Source: Crambe crambe (Eukaryota > Porifera > Demospongiae > Poecilosclerida > Crambeidae). Taken from it: a DNA stretch of 64,000 nucleotides. Made by a program: the position numbers and the translations under genes. Within the stretch, counting starts at the first letter, position 1, and each line of letters starts with the position of its first letter. Shown here piece by piece: positions 11,302 through 47,029 of this stretch. The stretch lies in assembly GCA_963924555.1 (NCBI GenBank), contig OZ004582.1, positions 5,952,001 through 6,016,000 on the forward strand, in the 5' to 3' direction. The notes beneath the pieces were generated by a model. The model was not told the origin of the DNA, ran no database searches, and saw only the letters and a list, made by a program, of their open reading frames with translations.

Positions 11302-14300
11302 ATGGAGTTTCAGACTTGTGTTTTCCTCACTATTATTACGACATCTTTGGTGAGCAAACTAGCTAATTATCCGCTAAGGGGTCACCGGTGCATTCCAATA
11401 GTCTGGGCCTGTCTGGCATAGCTATCTTATTTGAAACACTGCAGTGTGCCGGCTAGTTTGTTTATTGGCTAGGTCACCGTGTAATCTTTACTTTCACAGT
11501 TTATGCTGGTTGATGCAAATTACCAGCTTGAGATTGACCTCCGGTCTTATAGCAACCCCAGTAGACGAGTTATGGATCCAAACACTGGTGGAAATGGAGC
11601 ATGTTGTGATACTACAGATCCCAGAGATGGATCATGTATTCCACAGGATACATGTGATGTAATTTTCAACATCAGAGCTAGGAATTTTCGTCGAAGAAAT
11701 ATAGTACTTGGTTCAGTAGTGCAACTGGGAACCTTTGAGAATACAACAGACTCGATTAATTTTATGAATTGCAGCTTGATAATGGGAACAAGAAATCCCT
11801 TAACCATAACTTTTCCTGCATCAAGTTACTCACCATCTGCAAGGGTAAGTTTCATTCAATAATAAAAGTAATATGAGACAATTTGAGGTCTACTGATCGA
11901 ATGTGCACTCTAGAAATCTTTTTCAGGCCATTTTCTGTTGTAGTTAATTCATGCTTAGTGCAATATTACGCATTTGAGTAGTAGCTATAGTGTAAATCTT
12001 TGTGAAATGTTCTTTCATTATACAGGAACAGATTCGTTTAACTATAGAAATCTCAGACGAAGATATAGATCTTAACACTGGAGCACGTTCACTCACTCGT
12101 ATACAGAACTTCATTTATGAGATTCCTCGTTCTCAAACTACTAGTTCAGCCTTCAGCTCACTTCAATCACTGGAGTCCTCACACACCCCATCTCTCCGTC
12201 TCACCTTCAGATTCAGACTCACATGCACTCCAGGGTCGTGTGGAAGTGATTGTACTCAGACATCAAACTGTACACCATTTCCCAATGCATGTGAACTCGA
12301 GTGTAACAATGCCATGCAATGCCAGAATGGAGGAGTGTGTATGGTAAAGAAGTACACTTAAAGAAGGATAAATCTCTCAGCATGCAAAGAAATTAAATAT
12401 AATTAGCTACATAGGTACTCTCACAAAAAGTTAACTTCCAAAAGAGGACAACCTCTCTACAAAGGACAAAAACCTGGGTCCCAAGTGTGTCCATTGCTCA
12501 GAGTACATACAGGACTGTGCAAATTGGTTGCAGATTCAGACTCAAATGTAAACTTATTATGCATGTAGCTATAACTCACTAGGCTTGTAAGTTGTTTTCG
12601 TAGAATTTGGCTGCAAGCTTGGGTCTGAGTCTGCCGAACCAACTTGCTAAGTCCCTGTTATAAAACATAATAGCTAGCTGCTGTATAATGTCTATAGAGC
12701 TAATATTATGTTTCAGATATAGAGAAATCAAGTGTACATTAGTCCCATGTAGAAACCAGATATTAGGCACATTAATTTCGGCCAGAATAAACTTTCTTTG
12801 AGCGTGTAATAGCTATCTCTGAATGTTTTATACAAAGTTGATAGTTGGGCTACACTGTAGCTAACAGTATTTATCACAATAAGAAGATACAGAAATCAAC
12901 AGCAACCAGTTGGCTAGTATAGTGATTGTACAAAACTGGAAGATACATATGAGCCATAACAATCAGAAGATTACTATGATTAACAAATTATGAATACATA
13001 AATTGATCATCATAACACTTATAATATCAATTATTTAGGAAGATTTTTGTACATGTCCCCCTGGATTTACTGGTAAGTGAGTCATAAATCCCAAAATTAG
13101 CTTGCTGGCATTGGTCGCCTAGTTATTTCTAAGAAGGGGGTCTGTGCTTCAATCAGTGGAACCTCCAAGAGGACAAACCTCTCAACAAACTTAAGGACAT
13201 TGTAAAAGTACCTTTGTATAGCATTCTATCTGAAAAGAGGACAACCTCTCTGCAAAGGACTGGGTCAGTCAGTGTGTCCATTATTTGGAGGTTCCACTGC
13301 ATAGAAAGAGAGAGAGAGTGATTGGCTTAGTGGTTTGTCTACCAGTCCACCCCTCCCTCCCCCCTTTCCCTCCAGATCATACTTGTAAGGTCCTCATAAA
13401 ATCCAATGCCATGGTTTTCAACTTTTGGTACTCCCACCATGCACCATTGCTGTTGTACATAGAAGTTTGGGGGGTGAGGGAGGAATAAGAGGAGGAGTTT
13501 ACTCCTACTAATAATAATCATGCATGCCAGCATTTGAAACCTTTTTGCACGTGTACCACTCACACCTTAAAATTCAAAATGGCTGCCTAGCAATAGCTAG
13601 CTACTTTTAGATTGTCCTTTGTTAAGAGGTTTGTCCTCTTTAGCTTTTGGAGTGTCCACTGTATTTCTCCTCTTTGTAGGTATTAGATGTTCCATTCAAC
13701 TCAATCAAATGACAACTCCACCCTCAACTCAACCCCCTACAATGACAGTCTGGACCCTGCCCCCCTCAACAACCTTCTCAATGCCCCCCTCAAATCAAAT
13801 TCCTAACATAACGGCAACACTGTTAACTCCTGCCACTGCTGATGAAATAACGGCTACATCTCATGGTAAAGTTATGTATAACCTGTGATAGTCCACAGAT
13901 TAAATTAATACAGTGGCCCAGTAGTGTCATTCTTATTACTTATATGCTACGTATTTGCATATTTCAATTTCTAATTTCCAAAATACTTTCCATACTATAT
14001 AAAATGCAAAAAGAATGTCAAACTTTAGACTATGGTGTGTAGCTAGCTACCTTTTAATGGCAGCAATGAAACTCGAGTGCTATAGAGTTATTAAATGTGT
14101 TACTTTGTGTATGCCCATATTATGTAAGAAAACATTTCAGCTCTCGTTAGCCATACCCGACTTATCATTTTCTATATTATACATCTAGCTATAATGTCGG
14201 TGATTTAGTATATGAATTTTGTTTTCTAAATATACTTTTACATAATCTTAGAAAACAAAATGTTTTGAAATTCATATAGCTATACTAAACCTCTTTGTTG

Positions 14301-16063
14301 CTAGTATTATTTCTTATGTGCATGATGCCATAAGATACGTAGCTATGCCTATCTAATTTTGGTAGCCTTTGGCGATATTTTCCTATGCCATGGAAGTTGG
14401 ATCAGCAATCAATTAATTATTGAGTGACTCTTTTTTGATTCTTGCATTAATTACTGTTCTTGTGGCACCTGGGTTAGAAGAGATCCTCCAGTGGTGGATT
14501 CAGTGAGTATACAACCTAACACAGCAGCATTCACTATGTGTGAATGTCATGATCATATAATATAGCTAGTTGTGGAGTTGATTGATGTAATCTTGACTTA
14601 CGTATATGTGCTGCTTTGTATGTGATGGTAGTGTATATAATGCTGGCTGCTGTTTTTGTTTGCTTGTTGTTTGTTGTTGTTTTTTTGCTGCTCCATGCTT
14701 AAAATTAATTCAACGAGAGGTCTACACTCCAAAATTCCCTGAATAGTAGCACAGCATGTGCATAATGTGCATATTGTAATTGCCTTGATTGTTAATAGCC
14801 TCATCCCCAGGCTCTAAAATTTTGTGGAGTTGGACAAAAGAGCCTGGTACCCACTGTTAGTGCATGCACCAAAAATCCCCCATGATTTGGTGAATTTGTA
14901 ATCTCTCAGTAATTTTCCATGATGCATGATGCACTATTGCTGAATCAGCACTGCAACAGACAGCTAGCTCTAGTTCATTTCATGTACGTACCAGTTCTTC
15001 TTTGCAGACAGTGTGTCCATTAGTAATTTTTTACAAAAGTAAGCCTGAAATTATCCAGCCATACAGGATATATAAGTTAGTATACAACTTATGCAGATCA
15101 ATCAAAGAACACATGTGAAAGAAATATTACAATAGCTGTGGTTGTGACCTTCTTCTTGACCATTATAGTATCTACTATAATGACCATTATAGTATCTACT
15201 ATAATGACCATTATAGTATCTACTATAATTCATCTTTATATCATCAAGAAAAAGAACCAGTGAGTAGCTATCATACAATAACTATAATAATCATAGTTGC
15301 TATAGCTAGCTATAAATTAATGGCTAGAAAGTATACTGGCAGCCTATAGTTATCTTTTGGTTTACTAATAATCAGTCAAGTTTGAATTGTAGGACTTTAG
15401 ATTTAGGTGCTAGCAAGTCAGCATTCACAAGCCTGCATGTTGTTGTTGTTGTTTTTGTTTTTGATTTTGTTTTTGTTGTTGTTGTCATTATCATCATTGT
15501 TGCTGTTATAGTCATGTTATTACTTTGTGCAGGAAAAAGTTTAATGTGGAACACATCTATGAAACAACAACTGAGTAATAATACTACAGTAGCTACGTAC
15601 TAACTATAGCTTATGGGGAACTATCTATTTGGCGGTATATTATACCCTTGCAGAATGCATGCTAGACCACATTGTTTACATTAGCAGTGCAGATCAAGGC
15701 TACAAGAAGGCTACTGATCAGTGATCACTGCAAACCTGCATGGATACCATTTCTGAATGTGGTAGAGCTATGAAAATTTCCAGACTAGAAGTAGCTGTGC
15801 ACTATGCGGCCACATCATTAGGATTTAATTCTCGGTGGTTTATATACTTTACTTCCTAATGTGCAAGTTCAACCCTCAACCTTTATCCAGCCTTTGCTAC
15901 GTATGACAGGCAAATTCAGAGAATATAAAATTATTACTATACTGTAAGAATTTTTTTTATTCATCTATTTAATTTTTTTTTTTATAGAATGGATACCACC
16001 GAGAAAATAAATATGGTAACATGTGAAGCATATGAAAAAGTCCAGCCTAGTAGGCACAGCTAG
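11302..16063 (+). CDS. Mini-Delta A: Notch-ligand-like membrane protein
   Basis: Exons 11302-11349, 11500-11844, 12026-12343, 13039-13072, 13680-13865, 15097-15259 and then either 15533-15578 or 15988-16063 join without frame breaks (379 residues with the first tail). Order: signal peptide (MEFQTCVFLTIITTSL), MNNL-like region (YQLEIDLRSYSNPSRR, GACCDTT, CDVIFNIRA), a shortened five-cysteine stub where DSL would be (LTCTPGSCGSDCTQ), one EGF module (CNNAMQCQNGGVC plus EDFCTCPPGFTGIRC), a Thr/Pro stalk of about 60 residues, a transmembrane helix and a KKKNQ cytoplasmic start. Known Delta/Jagged proteins have a full DSL and several EGFs, so this is a reduced relative. The membrane helix carries three tandem copies of an 8-residue unit. 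Intron 6 lacks about 750 bp found in B and C. Confidence 0.75.
13154..13300. mobile_element. GGTTCCACTG-family MITE, complete copy
   Basis: Starts CAGTGGAACCTCCAAGAGGA and ends with the inverted TTATTTGGAGGTTCCACTGC. It is the clearest full-length member in the window of the dispersed family, inside intron 4 of mini-Delta A. No open frame. Confidence 0.7.
14798..14870. repeat. AGGCTCT...AGAGCCTGG palindromic repeat
   Basis: CCCCAGGCTCTAAAATTTTG is followed by GAGCCTGGTACC, a short inverted repeat. It recurs in mini-Delta B (23517-23565) and in reverse orientation in C (39545-39600), which shows a small dispersed hairpin element in the equivalent intron. Confidence 0.55.
15159..15230 (+). repeat. 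Three 24-bp tandem repeats inside the transmembrane exon of mini-Delta A
   Basis: Three head-to-tail copies of a 24-nt unit starting ACCATTATAGTATCTACTAT, in frame, adding TIIVSTIM-type octapeptides. Mini-Deltas B and C have a single unit. Confidence 0.95.
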
Positions 16064-16069
16064 ATAGCT

Positions 16070-17240
16070 AGTTGTGTCATCAACAACAGTAATTTCTGAT
16101 AACTTGTTTAGTAGCTAAGTATTAATACTTGAAACTTATTGTACCATCATAATTGATTAACCCTCAGTGTGCATGTGCCAGAGGGTTAATATGTACATGT
16201 ACATCCATGCAGAAATCCTTTGCCCTTAAAAAATCTAACAGTGAAATAGCGGAATCGATGCATACTGGGGTTGTTGGTTGTTGTGCTACATCCAACATAA
16301 TAGTTACTTGAACTACAAGCTGTCGTGCTAATAAGTGCCTTCATTGATGGTGGGAGGAGCATGCAACATGTGGCTAGCTCTGACTCTGGCAGCTACAGTA
16401 GTCTTTCATTGACTAGCCCAGCCAGCAACCATGCCAGCTAGTTGCATTGTATGTTTTGTCGTTATTTTCACTCAAGGATGTTCTTGTGCTTGTGTTTTTA
16501 CCCATCTTATTAGGAATTTGTTACTAAAATGGGAGTCAAGAGTACATAACTAGGAAGGACTGACCAATCACGTTTGTGGAAATGAAATAGTTTTTGCATG
16601 TTGCCTTGGCACTAAACCTATGCCCTGAGAGCAAGGGCTACTAGGCTGGCACTAAGTGCCCTGCAACTGACCAATCAGATTGCTCTATTCAGCAGAGCTA
16701 TGTTCTAATTTGTGTCACTGCCTTAGAAGAAAATACTTTCAGCGGATCTTGAAAATGTACCTCACTGAAATGAAGATGAGTCAGCTGGAACCACTGAAAT
16801 TTTTTCAATTACCTGGGGGACTTGGCAATGTCAGTACAGTAAAAGCTATGTAGCCAAAAGACTTAAATTTAATTGTTCCAAGCAAATTAAATTATATAGA
16901 GAGCACAGTATAGCTATTAGTAAGGCTACACAAATTGTTAGAAGATTTTCCATGAGGGAGGGAGGTTAATGTTCAATGTCTTCCAATAAAATTCAAGGGA
17001 ATAGCTAAATGCTTCACCAAAATAATTCATGTTACTGCTATTAAGAGGTCAGATTAAGTTTCCTTGGCCTCATAGCTACGTATAAGAGGAACCCAATCCT
17101 GTACATAACATGACCGTCCCGATTATCAATAGCTAACAACAGTAACAATAACAAAAACAGGCATGGACACTCTAGCTAGCTATGGCAATTTATAAACACA
17201 CAACAACAACAACAACGACAAAAACAAAAAACAACTAGCT
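16070..17240. other. Spacer between mini-Delta A and NHL-like remnant
   Basis: No gene recognised. From about 16200 it is nearly identical to 41820-42880 in unit 2. Local inverted pairs such as TTGCCTTGGCAC and CTGAGAGCAAGGGC near 16600-16680 do not make a clear element. Confidence 0.5.
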
Positions 17241-17249
17241 ACTAGCTAG

Positions 17250-17692
17250 CTAGTCCAAAGGATAATCAAACTCTCCTGGTTCCTGTCTCTTTCCACCAAA
17301 TGAGGTCACAAACTGACCTCGATCAGGCACGAATGCAAAGATCATAATGATTGCAAGTATATCACAGTATCATTTTTGTATTAGCTAATTGGAAATGAGG
17401 TATATAGCTACCTGCCGCACAAAATAATTGAGTGTCCTAGCTTTATCAGACTGGAGGTTCCACTGTTGGCAATGAACTGTGTTGCATCTTCTTGGACCAG
17501 TTGTATACCAGAACCAGCATAGGCTTTTCCTTTAACCACTTGTTTACTTGAATGTATATAGATTCGGTGGACTGGAAATGGTCTGTCCTGTTTGAAGAAT
17601 TTTTTTTCAAGAGTCAACCGCATACCAAGTAGGTTTTTTGAGTAGAAAAAAATAGTTTGCATATTTACAATGGATGTATCACTGAGAGGCAA
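17250..17692 (-). pseudogene. NHL-repeat-like remnant, unit 1
   Basis: On the minus strand, 17363-17250 encodes VPDRGQFVTSFGG and EPGEFDYPLD before a stop. This fits one NHL beta-propeller blade (DxxxFVxSFGxxGxxPGxFxxP) as in TRIM-NHL proteins. Upstream, 17692-17408 holds a minus-strand frame (FPVHRIYIHSSKQ) that is also kept in unit 2; its end overlaps a GGTTCCACTG-family sequence. No complete propeller, RING or B-box is seen, so this is probably a gene remnant or isolated terminal exons. The exon borders are uncertain. Confidence 0.4.
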
Positions 17693-17872
17693 TAATTATT
17701 TTGATCATTCAGTAAAATTGTTATTTTGCTAGTAAGTAAGAAACAGGTGAAAGGTCAGGAAGCACAACTCTACTCTCTCACTAGTGTCCCGATTATTGAA
17801 GCTCGAAGGCCATAACCAGATAAAGATAGGAACATTTCCATAATACAAGCAGCCGTGTCAAAACACATACGA

Positions 17873-17876
17873 CCGG
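17873..17876. repeat. Target-site duplication CCGG, left
   Basis: CCGG directly precedes the 2.14-kb element and is repeated at 20015-20018. The unit 2 empty site (ACGACCGGACTAG, 43496-43508) has one CCGG. Confidence 0.85.
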
Positions 17877-18099
17877 TGTCACAGTTTATTTTGTCGCTGG
17901 GAGATTCTGTCGCGGCGACAAAATATCCTAGGAAATTCTGTCGCGAGCGACATAATCTCCTAGGATATTTCGTCGCCGCCAGGATATATTGTCGCTGCAT
18001 ATAAAGTACCTATCGGAGAGGTGGTAGGCCTATAGCTATATCTGATTATATAAAAGACAATCGGTCACCAACAAATTGCTCTCCTAGTAATAAAGGCCA

Positions 18100-18737
18100 C
18101 TTGTCCTAAAATTAGACAGAAGGCTATTGAGACTGTGTCCTTCATCAAGCACCTAGGAATCTCTCCTGGGTTGGTAAGAGTACGCCGCTATGCCAGACTA
18201 GGACGTCTGCACACCTGCTGTCAGGCAAAATGCATTATTGGCTTCTTATATCGGCACTTTCACCTAGCAGACTCCAATTGCCTTACCCGCCTCTACTATG
18301 CAATCCTAGACTACGGTGCCAGTATCTGGGATCCACATCACAACAGGCTGACTAGATTATGGACTCTCTGCCACCAATCGATATAACCAACCTTAGGTGC
18401 TCCTACCATCAAATCCAAACTCACAGATTACCTTTGGTCAGTTATTCTGAGAAGTTTTGAAGCCAATAACATGCACTTGCACATTCCATCTTGTTTGCCC
18501 TTGCCGAAAATGTATGTCAAATCCCAAGCCACCCAATTATAATTATAGGACATGTAACCATTAACCAATCTTTTTTCTGTTGTTGTTTTTCGTTTGATTG
18601 TTTGTTTGTTGTGTTGTTTTTTTTTAAATCCTCTCCTGGTCGCCAGGCCAGTCTGGATCCTCAGCCTGCTCTAATTGCCCCATCCTCTTTTTTGTTGTTT
18701 CTTAAACGTCATCTTGTGCTGTAAATCAATAATAATA

Positions 18738-18814
<77 letters not shown>
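18100..18814 (+). mobile_element. Truncated LINE 3' end with (TAA)n tail
   Basis: The frame at 18135-18386 encodes FIKHLGISPG, GFLYRHFHLADSN and LYYAILDYGASIWDPHH, which is the C-terminal (thumb) part of a non-LTR retrotransposon reverse transcriptase. The frame then breaks. The segment ends in about 86 bp of TAA repeats (18729-18814), a usual 3' tail for such elements. It lies inside the inverted-repeat element. Confidence 0.75.
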
Positions 18815-19464
18815 GAGATAAAATCTCCTCAATCTCCTAGGATTATTGCTCACTATAGCTATAGCTAGCTATTATCTACTATAGCTAGTAATAAAATCTC
18901 CTGTGCACGGTAATAAAATCTCCCAGGATATCTTGTCTCTTACTTATCAAGCTCTATACTATATTAGCTAGTTATAGCTATATAGGTATGACTAGCTATA
19001 TCGCTCACTTGAGCTATGTTATAGCAGTATATATATAAAGAACTATATGTAGAATAATTTTTTACTTTCTATAGTAGCTAAGAGACATGTTGCTCTGTAG
19101 CATCAAGCTAGCTATTATACGCAAGTAGATATTTTCCAATACTGATTTGTATAAAGCTCTATCATGCATTCACATCAATATAGATCAGTTAATAATAATT
19201 TGCTGCTATAAACCAGTGAAATATTCCATCGTTACACACTTGCAAAAAATATAAGATACTAGAAAAAAACATGCTCCTTTGAAGTACGAGTGATATATAC
19301 ATAATATACACCCAACTATAAAGGTGAATAGCTAACAAGCTTGAGATTTTGATGCACCTATAAATAGCATTGCTCTATCTCTCATTTTATTTATAGAAAT
19401 AACTAGTGAAAAAAACTAGAAAAAAATCCCATTATAGAAAAGATTTATCACCAAGACAGAAATA

Positions 19465-19788
19465 GGGACTGGCACATTATGCTTTTTTGCTTCCCTATTA
19501 TTCTATTCTTCAATTCCAACTTTATAAAGTCATTATTCTTTTTTTACTGATCTATTATTCTTTAATTATGCTCTTACATGATGTCATCATGTATTGAAAG
19601 ACTACGTAAATAGCTATTTGCTATCTCACTAGCAGACAAGTTTGGTCAAGCTAGGCTAGCTAGTGTAGGCACACATGATAAATACATTCAAGATCAACAA
19701 TGGAGTTCACTTTCGATAGCCTATTATGCCAGCATTATGCTTCCTGCTTTGATAGACCAAAACTATGCTGGTAGAATGTGCCAGTCCT
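19465..19788. mobile_element. TA-flanked MITE (GGGACTGGCACATT family), copy 1
   Basis: Ends GGGACTGGCACATT and AATGTGCCAGTCCT are inverted repeats with TA on both sides, as for Tc1/mariner-type elements. Two related copies lie at 47046 and 56289. No coding capacity; nested inside the 2.14-kb element. Confidence 0.8.
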
Positions 19789-20014
19789 TAGACAGAAACG
19801 ATCTAGGATATGTTTTATTGCTAGGAGAGCAATTCGTTGGTGACCGATTGTCTTTGTATAATCATACCACCTCTCCGATAGGTACTTTATATGCAGCGAC
19901 AATATATCCTGGCGGCGACAAAATATCCTAGGAAATTATGTCGCTCGCGACAGAATTTCCTAGGATATTTTGTCGCCGCGACAGAATCTCCCAGCGACAA
20001 AATAAACTGTGACA

Positions 20015-20018
20015 CCGG
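20015..20018. repeat. Target-site duplication CCGG, right
   Basis: Second copy of the CCGG that flanks the 17877-20014 element. Confidence 0.85.
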
Positions 20019-20026
20019 ACTAGTAT

Positions 20027-20040
20027 GGTAAAGGGTCGAC
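20027..20040 (+). promoter_or_regulatory. GGTAAAGGGTCGAC promoter-proximal motif, mini-Delta B
   Basis: About 107 bp before the mini-Delta B ATG and only 12 bp downstream of the inserted 2.14-kb element. The insertion therefore separates this core from whatever upstream control region unit 2 still has. Confidence 0.5.
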
Positions 20041-20146
20041 TGCGCATGTAAAGGTACTGCGCATGCTCGATTGATTGGGCGTGTCTCTTTAAGCATGCGC
20101 ATCTTGCCACGCCCCCTCCTATAGTGGACAGGCTCGAGAAATAAGC

Positions 20147-23100
20147 ATGGAGTTTCAGACTTGTGTCTTCTTCACTGTTCTTACGGCATCTTTGGTGAGC
20201 AAGCTAGCTAATTATCAATAGTCTGGGCCTGTCTGGTGGCGTAGCTAGCATAGTTATCTTGCTTGAAACACTGCAGTGTGCCGGCTAGTTTGTTTATTGG
20301 CTAGGTCACCGTGTAAGTTATGATTATCTTTACTTTCACAGTTTATGCTGGTTGATGCAAACTACCAGCTTGAGATTGACCTCCAGTCTTATAGCAACCC
20401 CAGTAGACGAGTTATGGATCCGAACACTGGTGGAAATGGAGCATGTTGTGATACTACAGATCCCAGAGATGGATCATGTATTCTACAGGACACATGTGAT
20501 GTAATTTTCAACATCAGAGCTGTGAATTTTCGTCGAAGAAATTTAGAACTTGGTTCAGCAGTGCAACTGGGAACCTTTGAGAACTCTGACTCAATTACTT
20601 TTATGAATTGCAGCTTGATAATGGGAGGAAGAAACCCTCTGCTTATATCTTTTCCTGCATCAAGTTACTCACCATCTGCAAGGGTAAGTTTCACTCAATA
20701 AAAAAGGAATCAGCGGTTTGTGAATGGAAAATAACCAATGGGACAATTGATGCCTTTTAGAGGTCTCAAGTACTGATAGAATGTGCACTCTAAATATCTT
20801 TGTCAGGCCATTTTCTGTTGTAGTAAGTGATGCTGTTGAGTAGCTAGCTAACTAGTGTAATTCTTTGTGAAATGCTCTTTCATTGTACAGGAAGAGATTC
20901 GTTTAAGCATAGAAATCTCAGACGAAGATATAGATCTTAACACTGGAGCACGTTCACTCATTCGTATACAGAACTTCATTTATGAGATTCCTCGTTCTCA
21001 ACCTACTAGTACTGCCTTCAGCTCACTTCAAACACTGGAGTCCTCACACACCCCACCTCTCCGTCTCACCTTTAGATTCAGACTCACATGCACTCCAGGG
21101 TCATGTGGAAGTGATTGTACTCAGACATCAAACTGTACACCATTTCCCAACGCATGTGAACTCGAGTGTAACAATGCCATGCAATGCCAAAATGGAGGAA
21201 GATGTATGGTAAGGAAGTACACTGAAAAGGACATTCCAAAAGAGAATGTTTATCTTCAAATATTTTGTCCAAAGTTGAAACTGTTTATCCATCCATAGCT
21301 GTAACAGTATATGATTATAGGAATCAACAGTTACCAGTAATTATACAAACTTGAGGATATGAGCTATATAATAACCAGAAGACTCGATGATAAACAATTA
21401 ACAAACTGTGAATAGTCTTAGTGCATGAATAAAAAAATGTTTATGATGATCATCATAACACTTAGCTATATCATCATGTAACAATGTGATTGTTATGATT
21501 GTAGTTTTAATTCTTTAGGAAGGTTTTTGTGCGTGTCCCCCTGGATTTACTGGTAAGTTAATTGAGTTGCTCAATAATTATTGGGGGGAGTTAGTATACT
21601 CCAAAAAAAGGACAAACCTCTCAACAAACTAAACTAAACCTTTCTACAAAGGACAAAAGGCTGTGTTAGGTTCCACTGTACAGAGAAACAAACCACTAAG
21701 CACAGTGGTTTGTCTCTCTGTATAACCATACTGTTGCCTTATAAAGATCTATGCCCTTGCATACAGGTGCACGCAAGCCATGTGGGTAATAACATTTCAA
21801 AGAATAGGATTATGCTATATTATGCATACATGTGATTAAAAATTTGCAAGAAGACAAGATGGAAGTAAATAAACTTACCTGTGACCTGTACTCAACTCAC
21901 ATAAATCACATTTAGAAATGGCTGTCCATAGGCCCCTTTTTGTATTGTGTATATACCACTCCAAGAAAAAAAATGGGCCTGCATGGGTATGAGGCAAGGT
22001 AGCTACGTAGTTCCTATTGAGAGCCCCTTTTCTCTCTTAATTGTGGAACATACGTGGTTTTGTAACCTCTGAATAACATTTGGACACACTTGGGACCCTG
22101 GAGGTTATTGTGCATGCAGAGAGTATACATGTGTGACAATCCCATGTAGCATGTAGACATCAAATAGTCATTAGACTCATTTTTGGACCACGTCTAACCA
22201 TTACACTGTGAAAATGGGGGTGTCATGGTAACACCGGTGTATATTTTGTGCGAAAATGGCACCAGTGTTGTCATAACACCATCAGTGTAGCTACGTATAA
22301 CACCTTTTAGTAGCTATCACTTCTTTGGCACCCCAATGTGTTATAGCTGCCATATTTTCCCTCTTGTATGTAGGTGTTCGATGTTCCATTCAAATGACAA
22401 CATCACCTCCAACACAACCCATAACTCCACCCTCAACTTCACCCCCTACAATGACAGTCTGGACCCTGCCCCCCTCAACGACCTTCTCAATGCCCCCCTC
22501 AAATCAAATTCCTAACATAACAGCAACACTGTTAACTCCTGCTATTACTGATGAAATAATGGCTACATCTCATGGTAAAGTTATGTATAATCTGTGATAG
22601 TCCACAGATTAAATAGCTACAGTGGCACAGTAGTGTACTTATTTACTATTTGCATATTTCAATTTCTAATTTCCAAATTTCCAATAGCTATAGCTAATAT
22701 AATTCCATACTATATAAAATGCAAAAAAGAATGTCAAACTTTAGACTATGGTGTGTAGCTACCTTTTAATGGCAGCAATGAAACTACAGTGCTAGAGTTA
22801 TTAAAAATTATTTTGTGTATGCCCATAATTATTATGTAAGAAAACATTTCAGCTCTCATTAGCCATACCCGACTTATCATTTTCTATTATTAGCTATACA
22901 TCTAGCTATAATGTCGGTGATTTAGTATATGAATTTTGTTTTCTTTTACATAATCTTAGAAAACAAAATGTTTTGAAATTCATATAGCTATACTAACCCC
23001 TCTTTGTTGTTAAATTCCACTAGTATTATTTCTTATGTGCATGATGCCATAAGATACGTAGTTATGCCTATCTAATTTTGGTAGCCTTTGGGATATTTTC

Positions 23101-29139: not shown

Positions 29140-29178
<39 letters not shown>

Positions 29179-32292: not shown

Positions 32293-32336
32293 CAGTCAAA
32301 TGATGTGAAGGAGATTGAAATTGTTACTATCTATAG

Positions 32337-35653: not shown

Positions 35654-35669
35654 GGTAAAGGGTCGGTTA
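35654..35669 (+). promoter_or_regulatory. GGTAAAGGGTCGGTTA promoter-proximal motif, mini-Delta C
   Basis: Variant of the shared motif, about 90 bp before the mini-Delta C ATG. Confidence 0.45.
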
Positions 35670-38653
35670 CGCCGGTTTAATGACTGGGCGCGCAGCATCG
35701 ATTGATTGGGTGTTTTTTCGCCCACTCCTATAGTGGACAGATTCGAGATATAAACATGGAGTTTCAGACTTGTGTTTTCCTCACTGTTCTTACGGCATCT
35801 TTGGTGAGCAAACTAGCTAATTATCCGCTAACGGTGCATTCCCATAGTCTGGGCCTGTCTGGCATAGCTATCTTGCTTGAAACACTGCAGTGTGCCGGCT
35901 AGTTTGTTTATTAATAGCTATAGGTCACTGTGTAAGTGTTGATTATAATTTTCACAGTTTATGCTGGTTAATGCAAACTACCAGCTTGAGATTGACCTCC
36001 AGTCTTATAGCAACCCCAGTAGACGAGTTTGGGATCAGAACACTGGTGGAAATGGAGCATGTTGTGATACTACAGATCCCAGAGATGGATCATGTATTCC
36101 ACAGGACACATGTGATGTAATTTTCAACATCAGAGCTAGGAATTTTCGTCGAAGAAATATAGTACTTGGTTCAGCAGTGCAACTGGGAACCTTTGAGGAC
36201 TCTGACTTGATTACTTTTATGAATTCCAGCTTGATAATGGGAGGAAGAAATCCTCTGATTATAACTTTTCCTGCATCAAGTTACTCACCATCTGCAAGCG
36301 TAAGTTTCACTCAATAATGAAAGGAATCAGTTTGTGAATGGAAGATAGTCAATGGGACAATTGATGCCTTTTAGAGGTCTCGAATACTGATCGAATGTGC
36401 ACGCTAAATATCTTTGTCAGGCCATTTTCTGTTGTAGTAAATGATGCTGTTGAGTAGCTAGCTAACTAGTGTAATTCTTTATGGAAATGCTCTTTCATTG
36501 TACAGGAACAGATTCGTTTAACCATAGAAATCTCAGACGAAGATATACTTAACACTGGAGGACGTTCACTCACTCCTATACAGAACTTTATTTTTGAGAT
36601 TCCTCGTTCTCAACCTACTAGTTCAGCCTTCAGCTCACTTCAAACACTGGAGTCCCCACACACCCCACCTCTCCGTCTCACCTTTAGATTCAGACTCGCA
36701 TGCACTCCAGGGTCATGTGTAAGTGATTATACTCAGACATCAAACTGTACACCATTTCTCAATGCATGTGAACTCGAGTGTAACAATGCCATTGTAATGC
36801 CAGAACAGAGGAGTGTGTATGGTAAAGAAGTACACTTTAAATCTGATAAAGAAGGACAAATCTCTCAGCATGCAGATATATAATAATTATATAGGTATAC
36901 TCTCACAAAAAGTTAACTCCCAAAAGAGGACAACCACTCTACAAAGGACAAAAGTCCCAAGTATGTCCATTGTTCAGAGTACATACAAACTGTTTGCAGA
37001 TTCAGACTCAAATGTATGCATGTGTAGCTACGTATAACTCACTAGGCATGTAAGTTGTTTTTGTAGAATTTGGCTGCAAGCTTAGGTCTGAGTCTGCCGA
37101 ACCAACTTGCTAAGTCCCTGTTATAAATAGTCTATAGAGCTAATATATGTTTCAGGTAGCTATAGAGAAATCAAGTGTACATTAGTCCCATGTAGAAACC
37201 AGATATTAGGCACATTCATAAACTTTTCTTTGAGCGTATCTCTGAATGTTTCCAGATGTTTATACAAAGTTGATAGGGCTACACTGTAGCTAACAGTAAT
37301 CATAGTAAGATAAATCAACAGCAATTAGTTGGCTAGTAGGTATAGTGATTGTACAAAACTGGGAGATATGAGCCGTAACAATCAGAAGATTACTATTGTA
37401 ATGGCCTTGTAATGGCCTTAGTTATAATATAATAACACTCACAGCTCAAGATAGTATAACTGACTAAATGATTACAGAACACAGTCTATTATAAAGACTA
37501 TATAGTATGATGTAATGACTATATAGTATGAGCATGCTCAGTCCAGTACAACTATGATTAACAAACTATGAATACATAAATTGATTATGATGTCATCATA
37601 ACACTTATAATATCAATGTGTAAGTCATGATTGTTGTTTTAATTCTTTAGGGAGATTTTTGTACATGTCCCCCTGGATTTACTGGTATGTTGAGTCACAA
37701 ATCCCAAAATTAGCTTGCTGGCATTGTTTGCCTAGTTATTTCTAAGAAGGGGGTCAGTCTGTGCTTAATCAGTGGAACCTCCAAGTCTCAACAATCGATG
37801 GTGTGTGTGTAGGGCCATCTTTACTATGCTAGTTGATGGTCCTGGTGTTGAACACCAAATTGTTTACAAAAAACCAAAACAACAACAATAACAACAACAA
37901 CAACAAACAAACAAACTTAAGGACATTACTAGGGCAATGTTCAACATTCAGTTGACAGCAAGCGAGCAAGCAAGTATTCTTCAACGATTTTCATTTGCTG
38001 TTGAGTATCTGTAGCAATGTGCAGCATTTGATAGTGAGCAATTAAAGTAGCTGATAGGCTTCAGTGCTTGATATTGCTAGAGTCATGTAAGTGGTGGCAG
38101 GCAGCTGCATACATGCTTACCTCAAAGCACTTAGATAAGCCTAGTGCCTACAAGCCGCTTAGATAAGCCTCTTGTGCCTGCTGCCCAAAAGGCTGTAGAA
38201 ATGTTGAGCTGATAGTTCATTTGTGCTTTGCTGTAGCTAAGTGGCAGGCAGTTGCATGCCGATAACCTTGATGGGGTGGGGGCTATCATGGGTTATAATA
38301 TGCATGCCAATATGGCTGCATAAGCAGCTGCAGGAGGTGGAAGTGCCTCCTCCCACAGACAGAGTGAGGAGGCCAAAAAAAAACAACAACATAGCTATCT
38401 TCTTGGCTTCAGATATGCAGAATGTTAGCTAATTAAATAACATGAAACATGCACATTGGTCAGAAATATGTAGTAGCTAGCTATAGCTATCACATGATCC
38501 TCTTGGTACACATGGGCATCCTGAAACAAAGAGAGTGCTTCTAAACCAGGTGAATCATCTGGTATCAGCAATCATTGAATTCATTTATCGTAACAGTAGT
38601 AGCTAGAATGCATATAGAACAATTTGTTTTCAATAATTATTATTGCTAAAAAT

Positions 38654-38676
38654 GGGGGGGGGGGGGGGGGGGGGGG
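38654..38676 (+). repeat. Poly-G tract (23 G)
   Basis: Uninterrupted G run in intron 4 of mini-Delta C, preceding the GGTTCCACTG-family remnant at 38805. Confidence 0.9.
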
Positions 38677-39252
38677 CAAAGCCACCCCTTATCTATGTCA
38701 TGCATGCCAGCATTTGAAATGGCTACCCAGGCCCTTTTTGCATGTGTACCACTCCACCAAAAATTTTGAAATGGCTGCCTAGCTAGCTACTTTTAGATTG
38801 TCCTTTGTTGAGAGGTTTGTCCTCTTTAGCTTTTGGAGTGTCCTTCATTGGAGGTTCCACTGTATTTCTCCTCTTTGTAGGTATTAGATGTTCCATTCAA
38901 GTGACAACCCCACCTCTAACTCAAACCTCAACTCCACCCCCTACAATGACAGTCCCCTCAAATCAAACGGCAACACCTGCTACTACTGATGAAATAATGG
39001 CTACGTCTCATGGTAAAGTTATGTATATTCTGTGATAGCAATTTCTAATTTCCTATAATATGAATATATCTAGCTAGTTATGGAGTTGTTTGATGTAATC
39101 TTGACTTATATGTGCTGCTTGGTATCACTACCAACACACCATGCTTAAAATTAATTCAGTAGGTCTACACTCCAAAATCCCCCAGGTACATGCCATGAAT
39201 AGTAGCACAGCATGTGCATAATGTGCATGTGCCTTGATTGATTTCTACAGTA

Positions 39253-39354
39253 ACCCTCACCAACTACAAGCTAACTATTCCTACTTCACTCCCTTCTCAT
39301 CTTGGCCTGTCATGGGAGTGTAGTAGGAATAGTTAGCTTGTAGTTGGTGATGGG
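39253..39354. mobile_element. 102-bp hairpin MITE
   Basis: Two arms of about 40 bp, starting ACCCTCACCAACTACAAG and ending CTTGTAGTTGGTGATGGG, pair almost perfectly around a 20-bp loop. TA lies on each side. It is absent from the equivalent intron of mini-Deltas A and B. Confidence 0.8.
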
Positions 39355-41108
39355 TAAGGGATTATTTGACTGAAGTTCACTCTGTCGTTGCTGAACTGCA
39401 CACAGCCATCCCTACTTTTCTTTTCTATTTAGAATAATCCTTTATTGTCTTGTTCATAAACGTAGTTACATACTATGACATCACATACCGTCAAAGTGTA
39501 ATAGGCGGGAATTTTGCATGAAATTTTTGGCGCATGTGCAAACAGTGGGTACCAGGTTCTATTTTCCGCCTCCACATAATTTTAGAGCCTGGGTACGAGG
39601 CTACAGTCTTAGGCGTTAGGCTGCTAGGCTAGGCGATTGGCACTAGGCCTAAGTGGATAGGCATTCTACATGTATAAGCATTACTATGTATGCAGCTGTC
39701 TGCCACTTACATAACTCAACAGCAAAATCTTCTAAGTAGCACAAGGAGTTGAAGCACAAATGAATATCAGCTCAAAAAGCATAATATTATAGGAATACTA
39801 GCTTGTTGTGTAACTCAAATGTTGCTATAGTTATAGCTAGTCCTAAAACTAACATGGTAGGTGCATGTACATTCACTATGGTTCAGTCAAACTATGTGCC
39901 CTTTTTCATGTAGAGAGCTATAAGGCTAGCTACGCATTATTAGACTACTAACTGGTAATAATTATTGCTAGCAATTAAGTCATAGCTAATCACTAAATCA
40001 ATAGAAATTTTTCTAAGCAAAATAGCCACACAAAAATTATCCAGCCATATACAGGATATAAGTTTGTACAACTTGTGCAGATCAATCAAAGAACACATGT
40101 GGAAGAAATATTTCAATAGCTGTGGTTGTGACCTTCTTCTTGACCATTATACTATCTACTATAATTCATCTTTTGATATTTTACATCATCAAGAAAAAGA
40201 ACCAGTGAGTATATAATAATCATAGTTGCTATAAATTAATGCCATACTGAAAAGGGTTAAATAGTCGTGAATAGCTATTTCATTTTTTCTCTCCAAAATA
40301 TCAGACAATGATCCCACCATTGAAAGAGTTCCATGGGTATTAACTGTCAATCTAGGGATTTTATACGTACGTAAATGGCACAAAATCTGTCATTCAGGCT
40401 CATGAAATCCATCTAGCTAATAGCTAAATACTCTTTTAATCAGATTGCTCAGTTTATCCATCATTGTAGTCATGCATTAGCTAGAGTTTGTGTGCAGAAA
40501 TGAGTTAACTAGAACATTTAATGCCAATGTCATCCCAGCAAGTAGTTAGAAGCAAAAAATAAGCATTAGCTAGTTAGTCAGTATCATAATACCGTATATA
40601 TACGTAGCTAGCACTTAATTTTCAAAGGGGCTCAAATTTTCTTTTCGTAGAATGTAATTTCATGAATGATAGCAATGAAGGATGCACTCCAGGCCTGCCT
40701 TGCTAGCTGATTGAGCTCTGACAGATGAGGTTGAGATGTGATAACTTGCTTGAAGAATGGAGCACCATCACAAATCACTAACTAAACTAGTTAGCAGCTA
40801 GCTAAATTAGTTTCCTAGTTAGGTGACCATGCGCTACTCCTCTCCACAGTACATTATGAGACTAGCTAGCTGGCTACACCTTACTTCATTCTGCAGATCT
40901 TTTTCTGAAGATTACAATTTTCACTCCTTTCGTGAAATTCGTGAAATATAAATCCCTCGAACATTTAGTGTTATATGGCAATATTATAGGGCTAGAAAGG
41001 ATGCTGGCAGCCTATAGTTATCTTTTGGTTTATGGTCAAGTTTGAAATTGTAGGACTTTACATTTAGGTGCTAGCAAGTCAGCATTCACAAGCCTGCATG
41101 TTGTTATT

Positions 41109-41110
<2 letters not shown>

Positions 41111-41157
<47 letters not shown>
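41111..41157. repeat. (GTT)n microsatellite before tail exon 7 of mini-Delta C
   Basis: GTT run upstream of the acceptor at 41204. Shorter versions are at 15438-15484 (A, interrupted) and 24838-24863 (B), so length differs between family members. Confidence 0.85.
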
Positions 41158-41829
41158 CATTATCGTCATTGTTGCTGTTATAGTCATGTTATTACTTTAT
41201 GCAGGAAAAAGTTTAACGTGGAACACATCTATGAAACAACAACTGAGTAATAATAATGCTACAGTAGCTACGTACTAACTATAGCTTATGGGGAACTATT
41301 TAAATAAGGTGGTGGTATAATACCCTTGCAGAATGCATGCTAGACCACATTGTTTACATTAGCTATAATAGAGAGGGTGCAGATCAAGGCTACAAGAAGG
41401 GTACTGATCAGTGATCACTGCAAACCTGCATGGATACCACTTCTGAATGTGGTAGAGCTATGAAAATTTCCAGACTAGACTATGCGGCCACATCATTAGG
41501 ATTAGCTAAATTCTTGGTGGTTTATATACTTTACTTCCTAATGTGCAAGTTCAACCCTCAACCTTTATTCAGCCTTTGCTATGACAGGCAAATTCAGAGA
41601 AAATATAATTATTACTATACATCTTTTTTTTTTTATAGAATGGATGCTGAGAAAATAAATATGGTAACATGTGAAGCATATAAAAAAGTCCAGGTGTCAC
41701 ATCAACAACAATAACTTGTTTAGTATGTATTATCACTTGAAACTTATAATATTGTACGTACACTATATATAATTCCTTCCCCTCAGTGTGCATGTGCCAG
41801 AGGGTTAATATGTACATCCATGCGGAAAT

Positions 41830-42870
41830 CTTGATTTCCTTTGCCCTTAAAAAATCTAACAGCGAAATAGCGGAATCGATGCATACTGGGGTTGTTGGTT
41901 GTCATGCTACATCCAACATAATAGTTACTTGAACTACAAGTTGTCATGCTAGTAAGTGCCTTCATTGATGGTGGGAGGAGCATGCAACATGTGGCTAGCT
42001 CTGACTCTGGCAGCTACAGTAGTCTTTCATTGACTAGCCCAGCCAGCAACCATGCCAGCTAGTTGCATTATATTTCTTGTCGTTATTTTCACTCAGGATG
42101 TTCTTTGTGCTTGTGTATTCACTCACCATCTTGATTAGGAATTTGTTTACTAAAATGGGAGTCAAGAGTAACTAGGAAGGACTGACCAATCACGTTTGTG
42201 GAAATGAAATAGTTTTTGCATGTTGCCTTGGCACTAAACCTATGCCCTGAGAGCAAGGGCTACTAGGCTGGCACTAAGTGCCCTGCAACTGACCAATCAG
42301 ATTGCTCTATTCAGCAGAGCTATGTTCTAATTTGTGTCACTGCCTTAGAAGAAAATACTTTCAGCGGATCTTGAAAATATACCTCACTGAAATGAAGATG
42401 AGTCAGCTGGAACCACTGAAATTTTTTCAATCACTTGGGGGACTTGGCAGTGTCAGTACAGTAAAAATTATGTAGCCAAAAGACTTAAATTTGTTCCAAG
42501 CAAATTAAGTTATATAGAGAGCACAGTATAGCTATTAGTAAGGCTACACAAATTGTTAGAAGATTTTCCATGAGGGAGGGAGGTTAATGTTCAATGTCTT
42601 CCAATAAAATTCAAGGGAATAGCTAAATGCTTCACCAAAATAATTCATGTTACTGCTATTAAGAGGTCAGATTAAGTTTCCTTGGCCTCATAGCTACGTA
42701 TAAGAGGTGTACATAACATGACCTTCCCGATTATCAATAGCTAACAACAGTAGCAATAACAAAAACAGGCATGGACACTCTAGCTAGCTATGGCAATTTA
42801 TAAACACACAATAACAACAACAACGACAAAAACAAAAACAAAAAACAACTAGCTACTAGCTAGCTAGTCT
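41830..42870. other. Spacer between mini-Delta C and NHL-like remnant
   Basis: Nearly identical to 16205-17240. No gene recognised. Confidence 0.5.
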
Positions 42871-43235
42871 AAAGGATAATCAAACTCTCCTGGTTCCTGT
42901 CTCTTTCCACCAAATGAGGTCACAAACTGACCTCGATCAGGCACGAATGCAAAGATCATAATGATTGCAAGTATCACAATATCATTTTTGTATTAGCTAA
43001 TTGGAAATGAGGTATATAGCTACCTGCCGCACAAAATAATTGAGTGTCCTAGCTTTATCAGACTGAAGGTTCCACTGTTGGCAATGAACTGTGTTGCATC
43101 TTCTTGGACCAGTTGTATACCAGAACCAGCATAGGCTTTTCCTTTAACCACTTGTTTACTTGAATGTATATAGATTCGGTGGACTGGAAATGGTCTGTCC
43201 TGTTTGAAGAATTTTTTTTCAAGAGTCAACCGCAT
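42871..43235 (-). pseudogene. NHL-repeat-like remnant, unit 2
   Basis: Counterpart of 17250-17692, with the same minus-strand FVTSFGG and PGEFDYPLD-type segment and the upstream FPVHRIYIHSSKQ frame. An extra insertion near 43243 repeats a GTAGAAAAAAATAGG-like stretch. Confidence 0.4.
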
Positions 43236-43495
43236 ACCAAGTAGAAAAAAATAGGTTTTTTGAGTAGAAAAAAATAGTTTGCATATTTACAATGTATGCA
43301 TACAGATGTATCACTGAGAGGCAATAATTATTTTGATCATTCAGTAAAATTATTATTTTGCTAGTAAGTAAACAGGTGAAAGGTCAGGAAGCACAACTCT
43401 ACTCTCTCAAGTGTCCCAAATCACGAAGCTCGAAGGCCATAACCAGATAAAGATAGGAACATTTCCATAATACAAGCAGCCGTGTCAAAACACGT

Positions 43496-43508
43496 ACGAC
43501 CGGACTAG
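43496..43508. other. Empty integration site of the 2.14-kb element
   Basis: ACGACCGGACTAG is continuous here. In unit 1 the same flanks are separated by the element, with CCGG doubled. This is direct evidence of insertion in unit 1 rather than deletion. Confidence 0.9.
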
Positions 43509-43511
43509 TAT

Positions 43512-43526
43512 GGTAAAGGGTCGACT
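43512..43526 (+). promoter_or_regulatory. GGTAAAGGGTCGACT promoter-proximal motif, mini-Delta D
   Basis: Same motif as for A and B, here 146 bp before the ATG because about 40 bp (ATATAAGAGG-containing) are added between. Confidence 0.5.
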
Positions 43527-43671
43527 GCGCATGCAAGGCCTAAGGGTACTGCGCATGCTCGCTTGATTGGGCGTGTCTCTTTAAGCATAGATATAAGAGG
43601 TTTTACTTATGCTTTAAGCATGCGCATCTTGCCACGCCCCCTTCTATAGTGGACAGGCTCGAGAAATAAGC

Positions 43672-46600
43672 ATGGAGTTTCAGACTTGTGTCTTCCTCAC
43701 TGTTCTTACGGCATCTTTGGTGAGCAAGCTAGCTAATAGCTAATTATCTAATAGTCTGGGCCTGTCTGGTGGCGTAGCTAGCATAGCTATCTTGCTTGAA
43801 ACACTGCAGTGTGCCGGCTAGTTTGTTTATTGGCTAGGTCACCGTGTAAGTTATGATTATCTTTACTTTCACAGTTTATGCTGGTTGATGCAAACTACCA
43901 GCTTGAGATTGACCTCCGGTCTTATAGCAACCCCAGTAGACGAGTTATGGATCCAAACACTGGTGGAAATGGAGCATGTTGTGACACTACAGATCCCAGA
44001 GATGGATCATGTATTCCACAGGACACATGTGATATAATTTTAAACATCAGAGCTATGAATTTTCGTCGAAATTTAGAACTTGGTTCAGCAGTGCAACTGG
44101 GAACCTTTGAGAACTCTGACTCGATTACTTTTATGAATTGCAGCTTGATAATGGGAGGAAGAAACCCTCTGCTTATAACTTTTCCTGCATCAAGTTACTC
44201 ACCATCTGCAAGGGTAAGTTTCACTCAATAATAAAAGGAATCAGTTTGTGAATGGAAAATAGCCAATGCGACAATTGATGCCTTTTAGAGGTCTCGAGTA
44301 CTGATAGAATGTGCACTCTAAATATCTTTGTCAGGCCATTTTCTGTTGTAGTAAAATTAATGATGCTGTTGAGTAGCTACGTAACTATAGCTAGTGTAAT
44401 TTGTGAAATGCTCTTTCATTGTACAGGAAGAGATTCGTTTAAGCATAGAAATCTCAGACGAAGATATAGATCTTAACACTGGAGCACGTTCACTCACTCG
44501 TATACAGAACTTCATTTATGAGATTCCTCGTTCTCAACCTACTAGTTCAGCCTTCAGCTCACTTCAAACACTGGAGTCCTCACACACCCCACCTCTCCAC
44601 CTCACCTTTAGATTCAGACTCGCATGCACTCCAGGGTCGTGTGGAAGTGATTGTACTCAGACATCAAACTGTACACCATTTCCTAATGCATGTGAACTCG
44701 AGTGTAACAATGCCATGCAATGCCAAAATGGAGGAAGATGTATGGTAAGGAAGTACACTGGAACCTCTGATAAAGGACATTCCAAAAGAGAACAAACTTC
44801 TCAACATACATGCATGCAAAGGAACCTACGTACACTCTATACGAAATGACAGAGGACAACCTTTATACAAGGGATGAAAGTCGGGGTCCCGAGTGTCCAT
44901 TATTCAGAGGTTCTGCTGTAAATGCACATTATCTACATACATGCATGCATGATGCCTCAGGTGTATGCATGCATTTTAGATACAGAAATTCGGACTCAAG
45001 TTTGTAGTTGTATAGCTACAGTATTATGCATGTTTTGTACATGTAAATTGTTTTGACTGCAAGCTAGGGTCTGAATCTGCCAACCAAAGTCCTGTATATA
45101 TTTTAATCGTAGCTACTTCATTTCACTAGTTAATAAACACTGTGTGCATTAGTCATCAGTCCCAAGTAGAAATCAGAATTCATTTTGGCCAGAATAAACT
45201 CTTCTTTGAGTGTGTGATATCTCTGAATGTTTATCTTCAAATGTTTATCCAAAGTTGAAACTGTTTATCCATCCATAGCTGTAACAGTATGTTTATCATG
45301 ATAAGATATAGAAATCAACAGCTACGTACCAGTAATATTATGTGATTATAAAAACTTGAGGATATGAGCCGTAACAACCAGACTAAATAATAAACATTAC
45401 TACAATTAACAAACTGTGAATAGTCTTAGTACATAAATAAAATATTATGATGATCATCATAACACTTATGTAATGATGTGATTGTTACATGTATGATTGT
45501 TGTTTTAATTCTTTAGGAAGGTTTTTGTGCATGTCCCCCTGGATTTACTGGTAAGTTGATTGAGTTGATGAAGTCACAAATCCCGAAGTAGCTTAGCTCA
45601 ATAATTATTGGGGGGGGGGGGGGGGGGGGGGGGTTAGGATACTCCGAAAAAGGACAAACCTCTCATCAAACTAAACCTTTACTTATTCTATATACCTCCA
45701 AATAGGACAACCTCTCTACAAAAGACAAAAGGCTGAGCCGGTCCCAAGTGTGTTAGGTTCCACTGTGTGGTTTGTCTCTCTGTATAACCCCCTAATACTG
45801 TTGCCATATAAGTCAAACTAGAGTAAGATCCTTTTTAGGAATACCATATAAAGATCTATGCCCTCCCACCTTATTCGCATACAGGTGCATGCAAGCCATG
45901 TAAGTAATAACATTTCAAAGAATTGTGATTTATGCATAAGTTATTGTGATTAAAAATTTGCAAGGAGACAAGATGGAAATAAAATTAATGAATTTCCATG
46001 TGTACACCTGTGACCTGTACTCACATAAATCACATTTTAAAATGGCTATCCGTTGTTATTAATCAATCCGTTGTTATTAATCATATACCATACCAGTTTT
46101 AATCACATTTACCTTCCCTTTTTTGTATTGATAAAGATCTATGCCCTCCCACCTTATTCGCATACAAGTGCATGCAAGCCATGTACGTAAGTAATAACAT
46201 TTCCATTTCAAAGAATTATGATTTATGCATATTATGCATGTGATTAAAAATTTGCAAGGAGAAGTAAATGTGTACACCTGTGACCTGTACTCACATAAAT
46301 CACATTTTAAAATGGCCCCTTTCTTGTATTGTGTGCCACTCCAAGAAAAAAATAGGCCTGCATGGGCATGAGGCAAGGTAGCTACATAGTTCCTATTGAG
46401 AGCCCCTTTTCTCTCTTAATTGTGGAACATAGTTTAGTCAACATTTGGACACATTTGGGACCTTGGAGGTTATGGTGCAGAGAGTATACATGTGTGACAA
46501 TCACCAAGTAGACAATCAAATAATTATTAGACACATTCATTTTGGGCCACTTTGATAGTCTAACTATTATAGAACATGTGACAGAAGTTAGGAACAATTC

Positions 46601-47029
46601 ATTAATCTAAGCTAACAAAATACATGAGACTGTGACATGTGTAATTAATTATTAACTGTCCTTGGCCTTTGTTGAGAGGTTTGTCCTCTTAGTCATATTT
46701 TTCCTCTTGTACGTATAGGTGTTCGATGTTCCATTCGAGTGACAACATCACCTCCAACCCCACCCATAACTCCACCTCCTACAATGACAGTCCGGTCCCC
46801 GTCATCAATGACCCCCTCAATAACCCTCTCCTCAATGAACCCCTCAATGATCACCTCAACAGTCCCCTCAAATATGAATACTAACACAACAATGACACTA
46901 ATGAATCGTGTTACTACTTCTAAAATGACATCTACATCTCGTGGTAAAGTCAATAATAATAATTATGTGATTAAATTAGCCATAGCTAATTATCTCAAAT
47001 ATGAAACTCATGGTAAGATTACTCCATAG
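43672..47029 (+). CDS. Mini-Delta D: Notch-ligand-like protein lacking membrane exons
   Basis: Exons 43672-43719, 43875-44213, 44427-44744, 45517-45550 and 46719-46943 are open and in phase. They give signal peptide, MNNL-like region (one residue shorter: MNFRRNLEL), cysteine stub, EGF module (EGFCACPPGFTGVRC) and the longest Thr/Pro/Ser stalk (about 75 residues). No counterpart of the transmembrane or tail exons is found up to 49.3 kb. Without a further splice, the frame reads through the exon 5 donor for about 28 residues to a stop at 47029. The product would be a soluble ectodomain if expressed, or D may be a truncated gene at the end of the duplication. Confidence 0.6.
45610..45633 (+). 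repeat. Poly-G tract (24 G)
   Basis: Uninterrupted G run 60 bp after exon 4 of mini-Delta D. B has only a short GGGGGG at the same place (about 21582). Confidence 0.9.
45860..46310. repeat. Local duplication in intron 4 of mini-Delta D
   Basis: About 45855-46050 and 46135-46315 share AAGATCTATGCCCTCCCACC, CATACA(G/A)GTGCATGCAAGCC and ACACCTGTGACCTGTACTCA. This is a direct duplication of about 280-bp period that mini-Delta B lacks. Confidence 0.7.

Follow-up and report, generated by a model that had tools for sequence, protein, structure and literature searches.

Organization of the gene cluster

In our study, the window is a stretch of 64,000 nucleotides of the Crambe crambe genome (C3:5952001-6016000), and the genome searched with it comprises 143 Mb in 119 contigs. 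The window contains four genes, all on the + strand, which we designate A, B, C and D and whose starts lie at positions 11302, 20147, 35756 and 43672, respectively. According to the gene models, A, B and D share a common exon order, with phases 0,0,0,1,1 through exon 5 and consensus GT/AG splice signals; they encode, in this order, a signal peptide, an MNNL/C2-type domain, a five-cysteine remnant of the DSL domain, one EGF and a Thr/Pro stalk, to which A and B add a transmembrane (TM) exon and then a short tail exon. It is important to note that we infer the exon joins in these three genes, and in a related gene on contig C8 described below, from the gene models.

In gene A, exon 1 (11302-11349) encodes the signal peptide, exon 2 (11500-11844) the first part of the MNNL/C2-type domain, and exon 3 (12026-12343) the remaining C2, the DSL remnant and the start of the EGF, exons 2 and 3 being assigned from both the gene model and the profile comparisons. 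The end of the EGF lies in exon 4 (13039-13072), which has 34 nt as in the C8 relative, and its last cysteine in exon 5 (13680-13865), together with a Thr/Pro stalk; the TM exon (15097-15259) is followed by the tail exon, which runs to the stop codon (15533-15578), and the predicted protein has 379 aa. In this TM exon, a 24-nt unit is present about three times over and lengthens the hydrophobic stretch to about 40 residues. Gene B is arranged in the same way, with the signal peptide in exon 1 (20147-20194), the C2 domain divided between exon 2 (20342-20683) and exon 3 (20891-21208; also with the DSL remnant and EGF start, both exons again from gene model and profiles), the EGF end in exon 4 (21519-21552), the stalk in exon 5 (22374-22574), the TM exon at 23769-23892 and the tail exon to the stop codon at 24911-24956, for a predicted protein of 370 aa. 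Gene D comprises exon 1 with the signal peptide (43672-43719), exon 2 with the first part of C2 (43875-44213; gene model, Pfam scan and profiles), exon 3 with the C2 end, DSL remnant and EGF start (44427-44744; gene model and profiles), exon 4 with the EGF end (45517-45550) and the stalk exon 5 (46719-46943), up to whose end it encodes 321 aa; the open frame continues to a stop at 47029. In the genome-wide search for TM exons, which found the copies listed for A, B and C, no TM exon was identified downstream of D, whose product would be a secreted form unless the gene is on its way to loss.

An earlier note on this DNA had ascribed the above architecture to all four genes, and it holds for A, B and D at these coordinates but fails for C, which is out of frame before the EGF. 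The TM helix and short tail attributed there to three genes are encoded in A and B; C has both exons but is broken upstream. The remaining structural claims of that note were borne out: five cysteines stand N-terminal to the EGF where a DSL domain would be expected, the gene models of A, B and D have a single EGF on the stalk, the stalk exon varies in length (62 codons in A, 67 in B, 44 in C and 75 in D), and the membrane region varies through the repeat in A and the absence of a TM exon in D.

Two other coding regions were observed in the window: an intronless gene for an ankyrin-repeat protein of 949 aa on the - strand (49386-52235) and a frame with a ZU5 domain (978-1652; 24.9 bits).

Tandem duplication and selection

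Gene C (35756-41250, + strand) has its exon 3 at 36506-36821, stalk at 38881-39012, TM exon at 40081-40204 and tail exon from about 41205, the last two thus being retained. Its exon 3 has 316 nt instead of the 318 nt in A, B and D, so that the frame is lost before the EGF and the joined frame reaches stops, and two of its ectodomain cysteines are replaced. Because of this frameshift, the lost cysteines and the neutral evolution described below, C is probably a pseudogene.

A comparison of the window with itself revealed two similar units, each with a GMC oxidoreductase gene followed by two genes of the cluster: the first (2326-21246) includes A and B, and the second (26688-44792) includes C and D, the similarity between them being interrupted. 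One block (2326-12977 against 26688-37396) has 10,940 aligned positions at 93.1% identity; further blocks, at 89.2 and 91.6%, extend up to 21246 and 44792, with poorly matching stretches in between. The gene starts are spaced 24.5 kb apart for A and C and 23.5 kb for B and D, and the intronless GMC oxidoreductase genes of the two units differ by a dS of 0.017 and a dN of 0.002. Taken together, the blocks, the spacing and the low divergence of the GMC genes indicate that part of the cluster, namely the A/C and B/D pairs, goes back to a tandem duplication that is recent and spans about 24 kb. Over exons 1-3 and their introns, C is closer to B (90.8% identity) than A is (84.7%), which suggests conversion or a mosaic origin within the cluster. 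Directly upstream of the window, at C3:5942500-5952000, a piece of the TM region of gene C (92%) is fused to GMC oxidoreductase fragments (96-97%), an arrangement that we read as debris of unequal exchange. The GMC gene had no matches in a comparison with phage records.

Selection was assessed by the Nei-Gojobori method on exons 2-3, with 208-220 codons per pair and with C cut before its frame break and thus without the EGF; a binomial test on rounded counts was used for too few amino-acid changes. The dN/dS values were 0.36 for A-B (p 0.0023), 0.33 for A-D (p 0.0015) and 0.28 for B-D (p 0.0063), while the three pairs that include C gave 0.58, 1.63 and 0.82 (p 0.13, 0.41 and 0.68 against neutrality), as would be expected if three of the genes were constrained and the fourth a pseudogene. 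Over exons 2-3, A, B and D are therefore under purifying, not diversifying, selection, and the diversification expected of a polymorphic allorecognition family was not found in these exons. The resemblance to fast-evolving recognition families proposed in the earlier note is seen in the variable stalk lengths and TM exons; for exons 2-3 it is not supported, and the copies are in part recent duplicates, one of them broken.

Relationship of the ectodomain to Notch ligands

The earlier note had also proposed an N-terminus like that of Notch ligands, to be examined with MNNL, DSL and EGF profiles. Single sequences compared with Pfam gave little: the best MNNL score among the 8 exon frames scanned was 14.0 bits (D exon 2; cut-off 22.5), the joined A, B and D proteins had no MNNL match, and no DSL match was obtained in them at E up to 10. 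The EGF scored near the cut-off in the window genes and exceeded it in D only. CLIP, Fer2_3 and other weak Pfam matches fell below cut-off and were set aside. Single-sequence searches with the window proteins thus returned EGF or chance matches only, and the MNNL domain does not emerge from them.

Comparisons between profiles gave a different result. Of the 25 matches of protein B in the genome, exons 2-3 of the four window genes account for 8 and window exon-1 regions for 2; the others include two in a single gene on C8 (41 and 47% identity in two exons), 12 weaker ones on C13 and one on C10. A profile of the window genes plus this C8 gene matched three complete Deltas of the same genome (prob 98.1, E 8e-14), and it matched nine other MNNL genes of the genome still better (prob 98.7, E 3.4e-16, score 101.7). 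In this latter comparison the window genes alone scored 93.0 and the C8 gene alone 80.5, against 23.2 for the best of 200 column shuffles and 33.4 for the reversed profile (prob 53.6). Against four solved bilaterian ligands (Drosophila Delta, Serrate, Jagged-1 and rat DLL4) the combined profile reached prob 96.2, E 2.3e-9 and score 62.6 (best of 200 shuffles 23.3, reversed 18.3), whereas the window genes alone matched them weakly (prob 34, score 30.8). The profile of the three complete Deltas, compared with the solved Delta, Serrate, Jagged and DLL chains, gave a best value of 1.7e-29. When the window plus C8 profile was run against the PDB, no Notch ligand was recovered, only EGF or chance matches.

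The profile match spans C2 and stops inside the remnant of DSL. The aligned sequences of the window genes and the C8 gene have neither the cysteine pair FCLR...C of MNNL nor the RPRDD..FGHY stretch of DSL, and the Notch-contact loop of DSL is absent from the window genes. The intron between exons 2 and 3 splits the C2 domain, with the boundary at the same domain point in the Deltas of the genome. A, B, D and the C8 gene have an aspartate at the column of Jagged-1 D140, which binds calcium (PMC3888931); this is a soft argument, since human DLL1 and DLL4 are described as missing the calcium aspartates (PMC5538765). The profile comparisons show that the predicted ectodomain of A, B and D is homologous to C2 (MNNL) and the first DSL cysteines of Notch ligands, followed by one EGF. 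The proposed Notch-ligand N-terminus accordingly finds support in the profile comparisons, well above shuffled controls, but not in single-sequence Pfam scans.

A related cassette on a predicted adhesion GPCR

On one strand, the C8 gene carries exons for a signal peptide, C2, the DSL remnant, an EGF and a long stalk of Thr/Pro repeats, and then HRM-like, GPS and 7TM exons. Its Pfam scores exceed the cut-offs for MNNL (25.2 bits; 22.5), GPS (34.6; 22.5) and 7tm_2 (51.0 and 32.3; 20.6), and the HRM-like exon, at 23.1 bits, remains under its cut-off of 26.2; no Pfam match to GAIN was found between HRM and GPS. Exons 1-5 have phases 0,0,0,1,1 and a 34-nt exon 4, equal to those of the window genes; exon 2 has a weak donor. 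Between the stalk exon and the HRM exon lie 398 nt, in which no TM exon was seen; the phases of the two exons are compatible, and we infer that they are joined across this intron. With GPS and 7TM downstream of the C2 cassette on the same strand, the gene model is that of an adhesion GPCR. A, B and D lack both GPS and 7TM and are not themselves adhesion GPCRs.

In a tree of 13 rows, a branch supported at 100/99 separates the window genes and the C8 gene from the other rows. By gene model, the nearest relative of the window genes in this genome, the one on C8, is an adhesion GPCR. Other candidates for this position were rejected: the C13 MNNL/DSL genes match protein B more weakly than C8, those on C15 are not among its matches, and the nine genes of this kind in the tree fall outside the window plus C8 group. 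A sequence at C8:5592451, with 69% identity to the C8 MNNL exon, has a frame with lost cysteines and was taken as a relic. Across the genome we found at least 166 matches to 7tm_2 (150 of 233 candidates scored), and those listed include none at C13 5.8-6.0 Mb or C15 6.0-6.5 Mb.

In the GPS exon of the C8 receptor, QLT stands in place of the canonical H-X-S/T site (PMC13062082), and self-cleavage may therefore be impaired.

Origin of the membrane anchor

The TM and tail region of B had 58 matches in the genome at E up to 1, distributed over C13 (39, at 3.14-4.52 Mb), C3 (8), C9 (7), C11 (2), C20 (1) and C12 (1). One of the C13 genes, L074, has four fn3 domains that exceed the cut-off, and its Ig match is weak. 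Its TM exon aligns with that of the window genes with a score of 102, compared with at most 56 in 5000 shuffles and at most 68 in 5000 class-preserving shuffles; the two exons also align at the DNA level, and both start in phase 1. For this one family member, the alignment shows the predicted TM exon of the window genes to be homologous to that of an Ig/Fn3 receptor family. L074 itself is an Ig/Fn3 single-pass receptor whose tail carries Tyr motifs. A near-identical TM piece follows a Sushi gene on C11 and may be a fragment only.

Interpretation of the cluster

The window genes combine features of several known systems. With Notch ligands (Delta/Serrate/Jagged and AmqDelta1-5) they have in common the signal peptide, a C2/MNNL domain recognizable by profile-profile comparison with the C8 relative, the DSL start and an EGF, and in A and B also the single TM and short tail; C is broken upstream of these and D has no TM exon. 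They differ in having a five-cysteine remnant without the receptor loop instead of a complete DSL, one EGF on a Thr/Pro stalk instead of several EGFs, no FCLR...C pair, and a TM exon from another receptor family. DNER, unlike the window genes, has many EGFs and no C2 head. Like them, it is a Notch-ligand-like protein without DSL, and it is described as not being a Notch ligand (PMC5021350). AmqDelta1-5 of Amphimedon are reported all to keep DSL, and AmqDelta4, which is called a ligand, has no EGF repeats (PMC3482393). The predicted adhesion GPCR (class B2) gene on C8 and the window genes have five N-terminal exons in common, phases included; HRM, GPS and 7TM are missing from the window genes. 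With the Ig/Fn3 single-pass gene L074 they share a homologous TM exon starting in phase 1; its ectodomain, four fn3 domains with a weak Ig match, and its tail are different.

We think there is about an even chance that Notch ligands have diverged relatives in A, B and probably D, with a C2 surface-recognition cassette placed on various anchors, and that these genes are not canonical Notch ligands. The cassette of C2, DSL remnant, EGF and stalk would have been shuffled as exons at a phase-1 intron onto different anchors, both single-pass and 7TM; its C2 head, with the aspartate at the D140 column, might recognize a lipid of the membrane or a binding partner on an adjacent cell, and the single-pass forms might be adhesion proteins, or competitors or partners of the C8 receptor. 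Canonical Notch switching would be absent without the DSL contact loop. The Notch-signalling role raised in the earlier note becomes less likely in its canonical form because this loop is missing, even as the homology to the ligand N-terminus is upheld; in Jagged-1, the F207A change in the Notch-binding face of DSL lowers binding to background (PMC3888931). A bolder proposal, which we regard as rather doubtful, is that a Notch-ligand C2 head on an adhesion GPCR and matching single-pass twins would compete for, or bind, one partner in a contact system that is assembled from pieces of Notch ligands but independent of Notch.

That the genes are reduced Notch ligands, with a C2 head that binds either Notch or the canonical Deltas, and act in cis or as decoys damping Notch signalling, we consider unlikely. 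The profile homology to the ligand N-terminus speaks for it, and loss of the loop is compatible with Notch binding because C2 is one of the two Notch contact sites (PMC5538765) and the Amphimedon Deltas, described as lacking the bilaterian DSL contact residues, are nevertheless regarded as ligands (PMC3482393). The genome also has LNR repeats on C16 and C17 (4 matches), consistent with a Notch gene, and many complete or partial DSL genes (37 places, E up to 1). Against this stand the missing DSL match and contact loop in A, B and D, a closest relative that by gene model is a GPCR, and a TM exon from a non-Delta family. It is quite unlikely that the cluster consists for the most part of decaying remains of tandem duplication in which little function is left: C is frameshifted and neutral, D lacks a TM exon, that of A is distorted by its repeat and fragments lie directly upstream of the window, but the open frames, splice signals and sub-neutral dN/dS (0.28-0.36) of A, B and D speak against this reading.

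If the genes formed a family with variable heads for allorecognition or immunity, this would account for the tandem copies, the variable stalk and the varying or missing TM exons, and for an anchor resembling the one found in a large Ig/Fn3 receptor family (39 of the 58 TM matches are on C13, of which one member was examined); with exons 2-3 conserved rather than diversified, and only four copies of which one is broken, we find such a family improbable. The failure of single-sequence searches and the prob of 53.6 for the reversed control would be expected if the MNNL likeness were a convergence of cysteine-rich sequence. This we hold to be very improbable, given two comparisons that score far beyond their shuffled and reversed controls, a C8 relative above the Pfam MNNL cut-off, and an intron at the same domain point in the Deltas of the genome.

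In Notch ligands, the C2 head is usually regarded as accessory to DSL. Under the preferred reading, that of a C2 cassette on various anchors, this head is found here beside a dismantled DSL, on anchors that are single-pass or, by gene model, seven-pass; an independent recognition job of the C2 head thereby becomes testable, and the cluster would be a concrete example of how exon shuffling rewires a signalling module in animals. Among the open-licence papers listed, judged by title and abstract start, we recognized no report of MNNL or DSL on adhesion GPCRs, or of sponge Delta expansions; the words DSL and MNNL are absent from the main texts of PMC4302439, which surveys 40 Amphimedon adhesion GPCRs, and of PMC12716839. 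MNNL together with DSL serves as the mark of Delta in one survey, which found both in a choanoflagellate (PMC6040629).

Other MNNL and DSL loci in the genome

Several further loci with MNNL or DSL sequences were observed. In one open frame on C5 (C5:3123262-3126459), the latter part of an MNNL is followed by a DSL-like remnant, EGFs and then the initial part of a further MNNL, which appears to make this frame a tandem double Notch-ligand head. On C15, ten DSL matches lie in two open frames of 286 and 273 aa (C15:6462611-6465414), predicted to encode multi-DSL proteins, and another region (C15:6023968-6027153) has frames for MNNL, a DSL remnant, a stalk of Ser/Thr and a TM helix, among which no EGF was seen, perhaps another short Delta-like form. 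At about 5.82-5.99 Mb, C13 carries an extensive array of exons for DSL and MNNL-like sequences, many of which have tandem repeats of the CLPGRDLSSNC type or long runs of EGFs, and at C13:5991975-5995166 a frame that by eye resembles a retroelement gag lies directly behind an MNNL exon.
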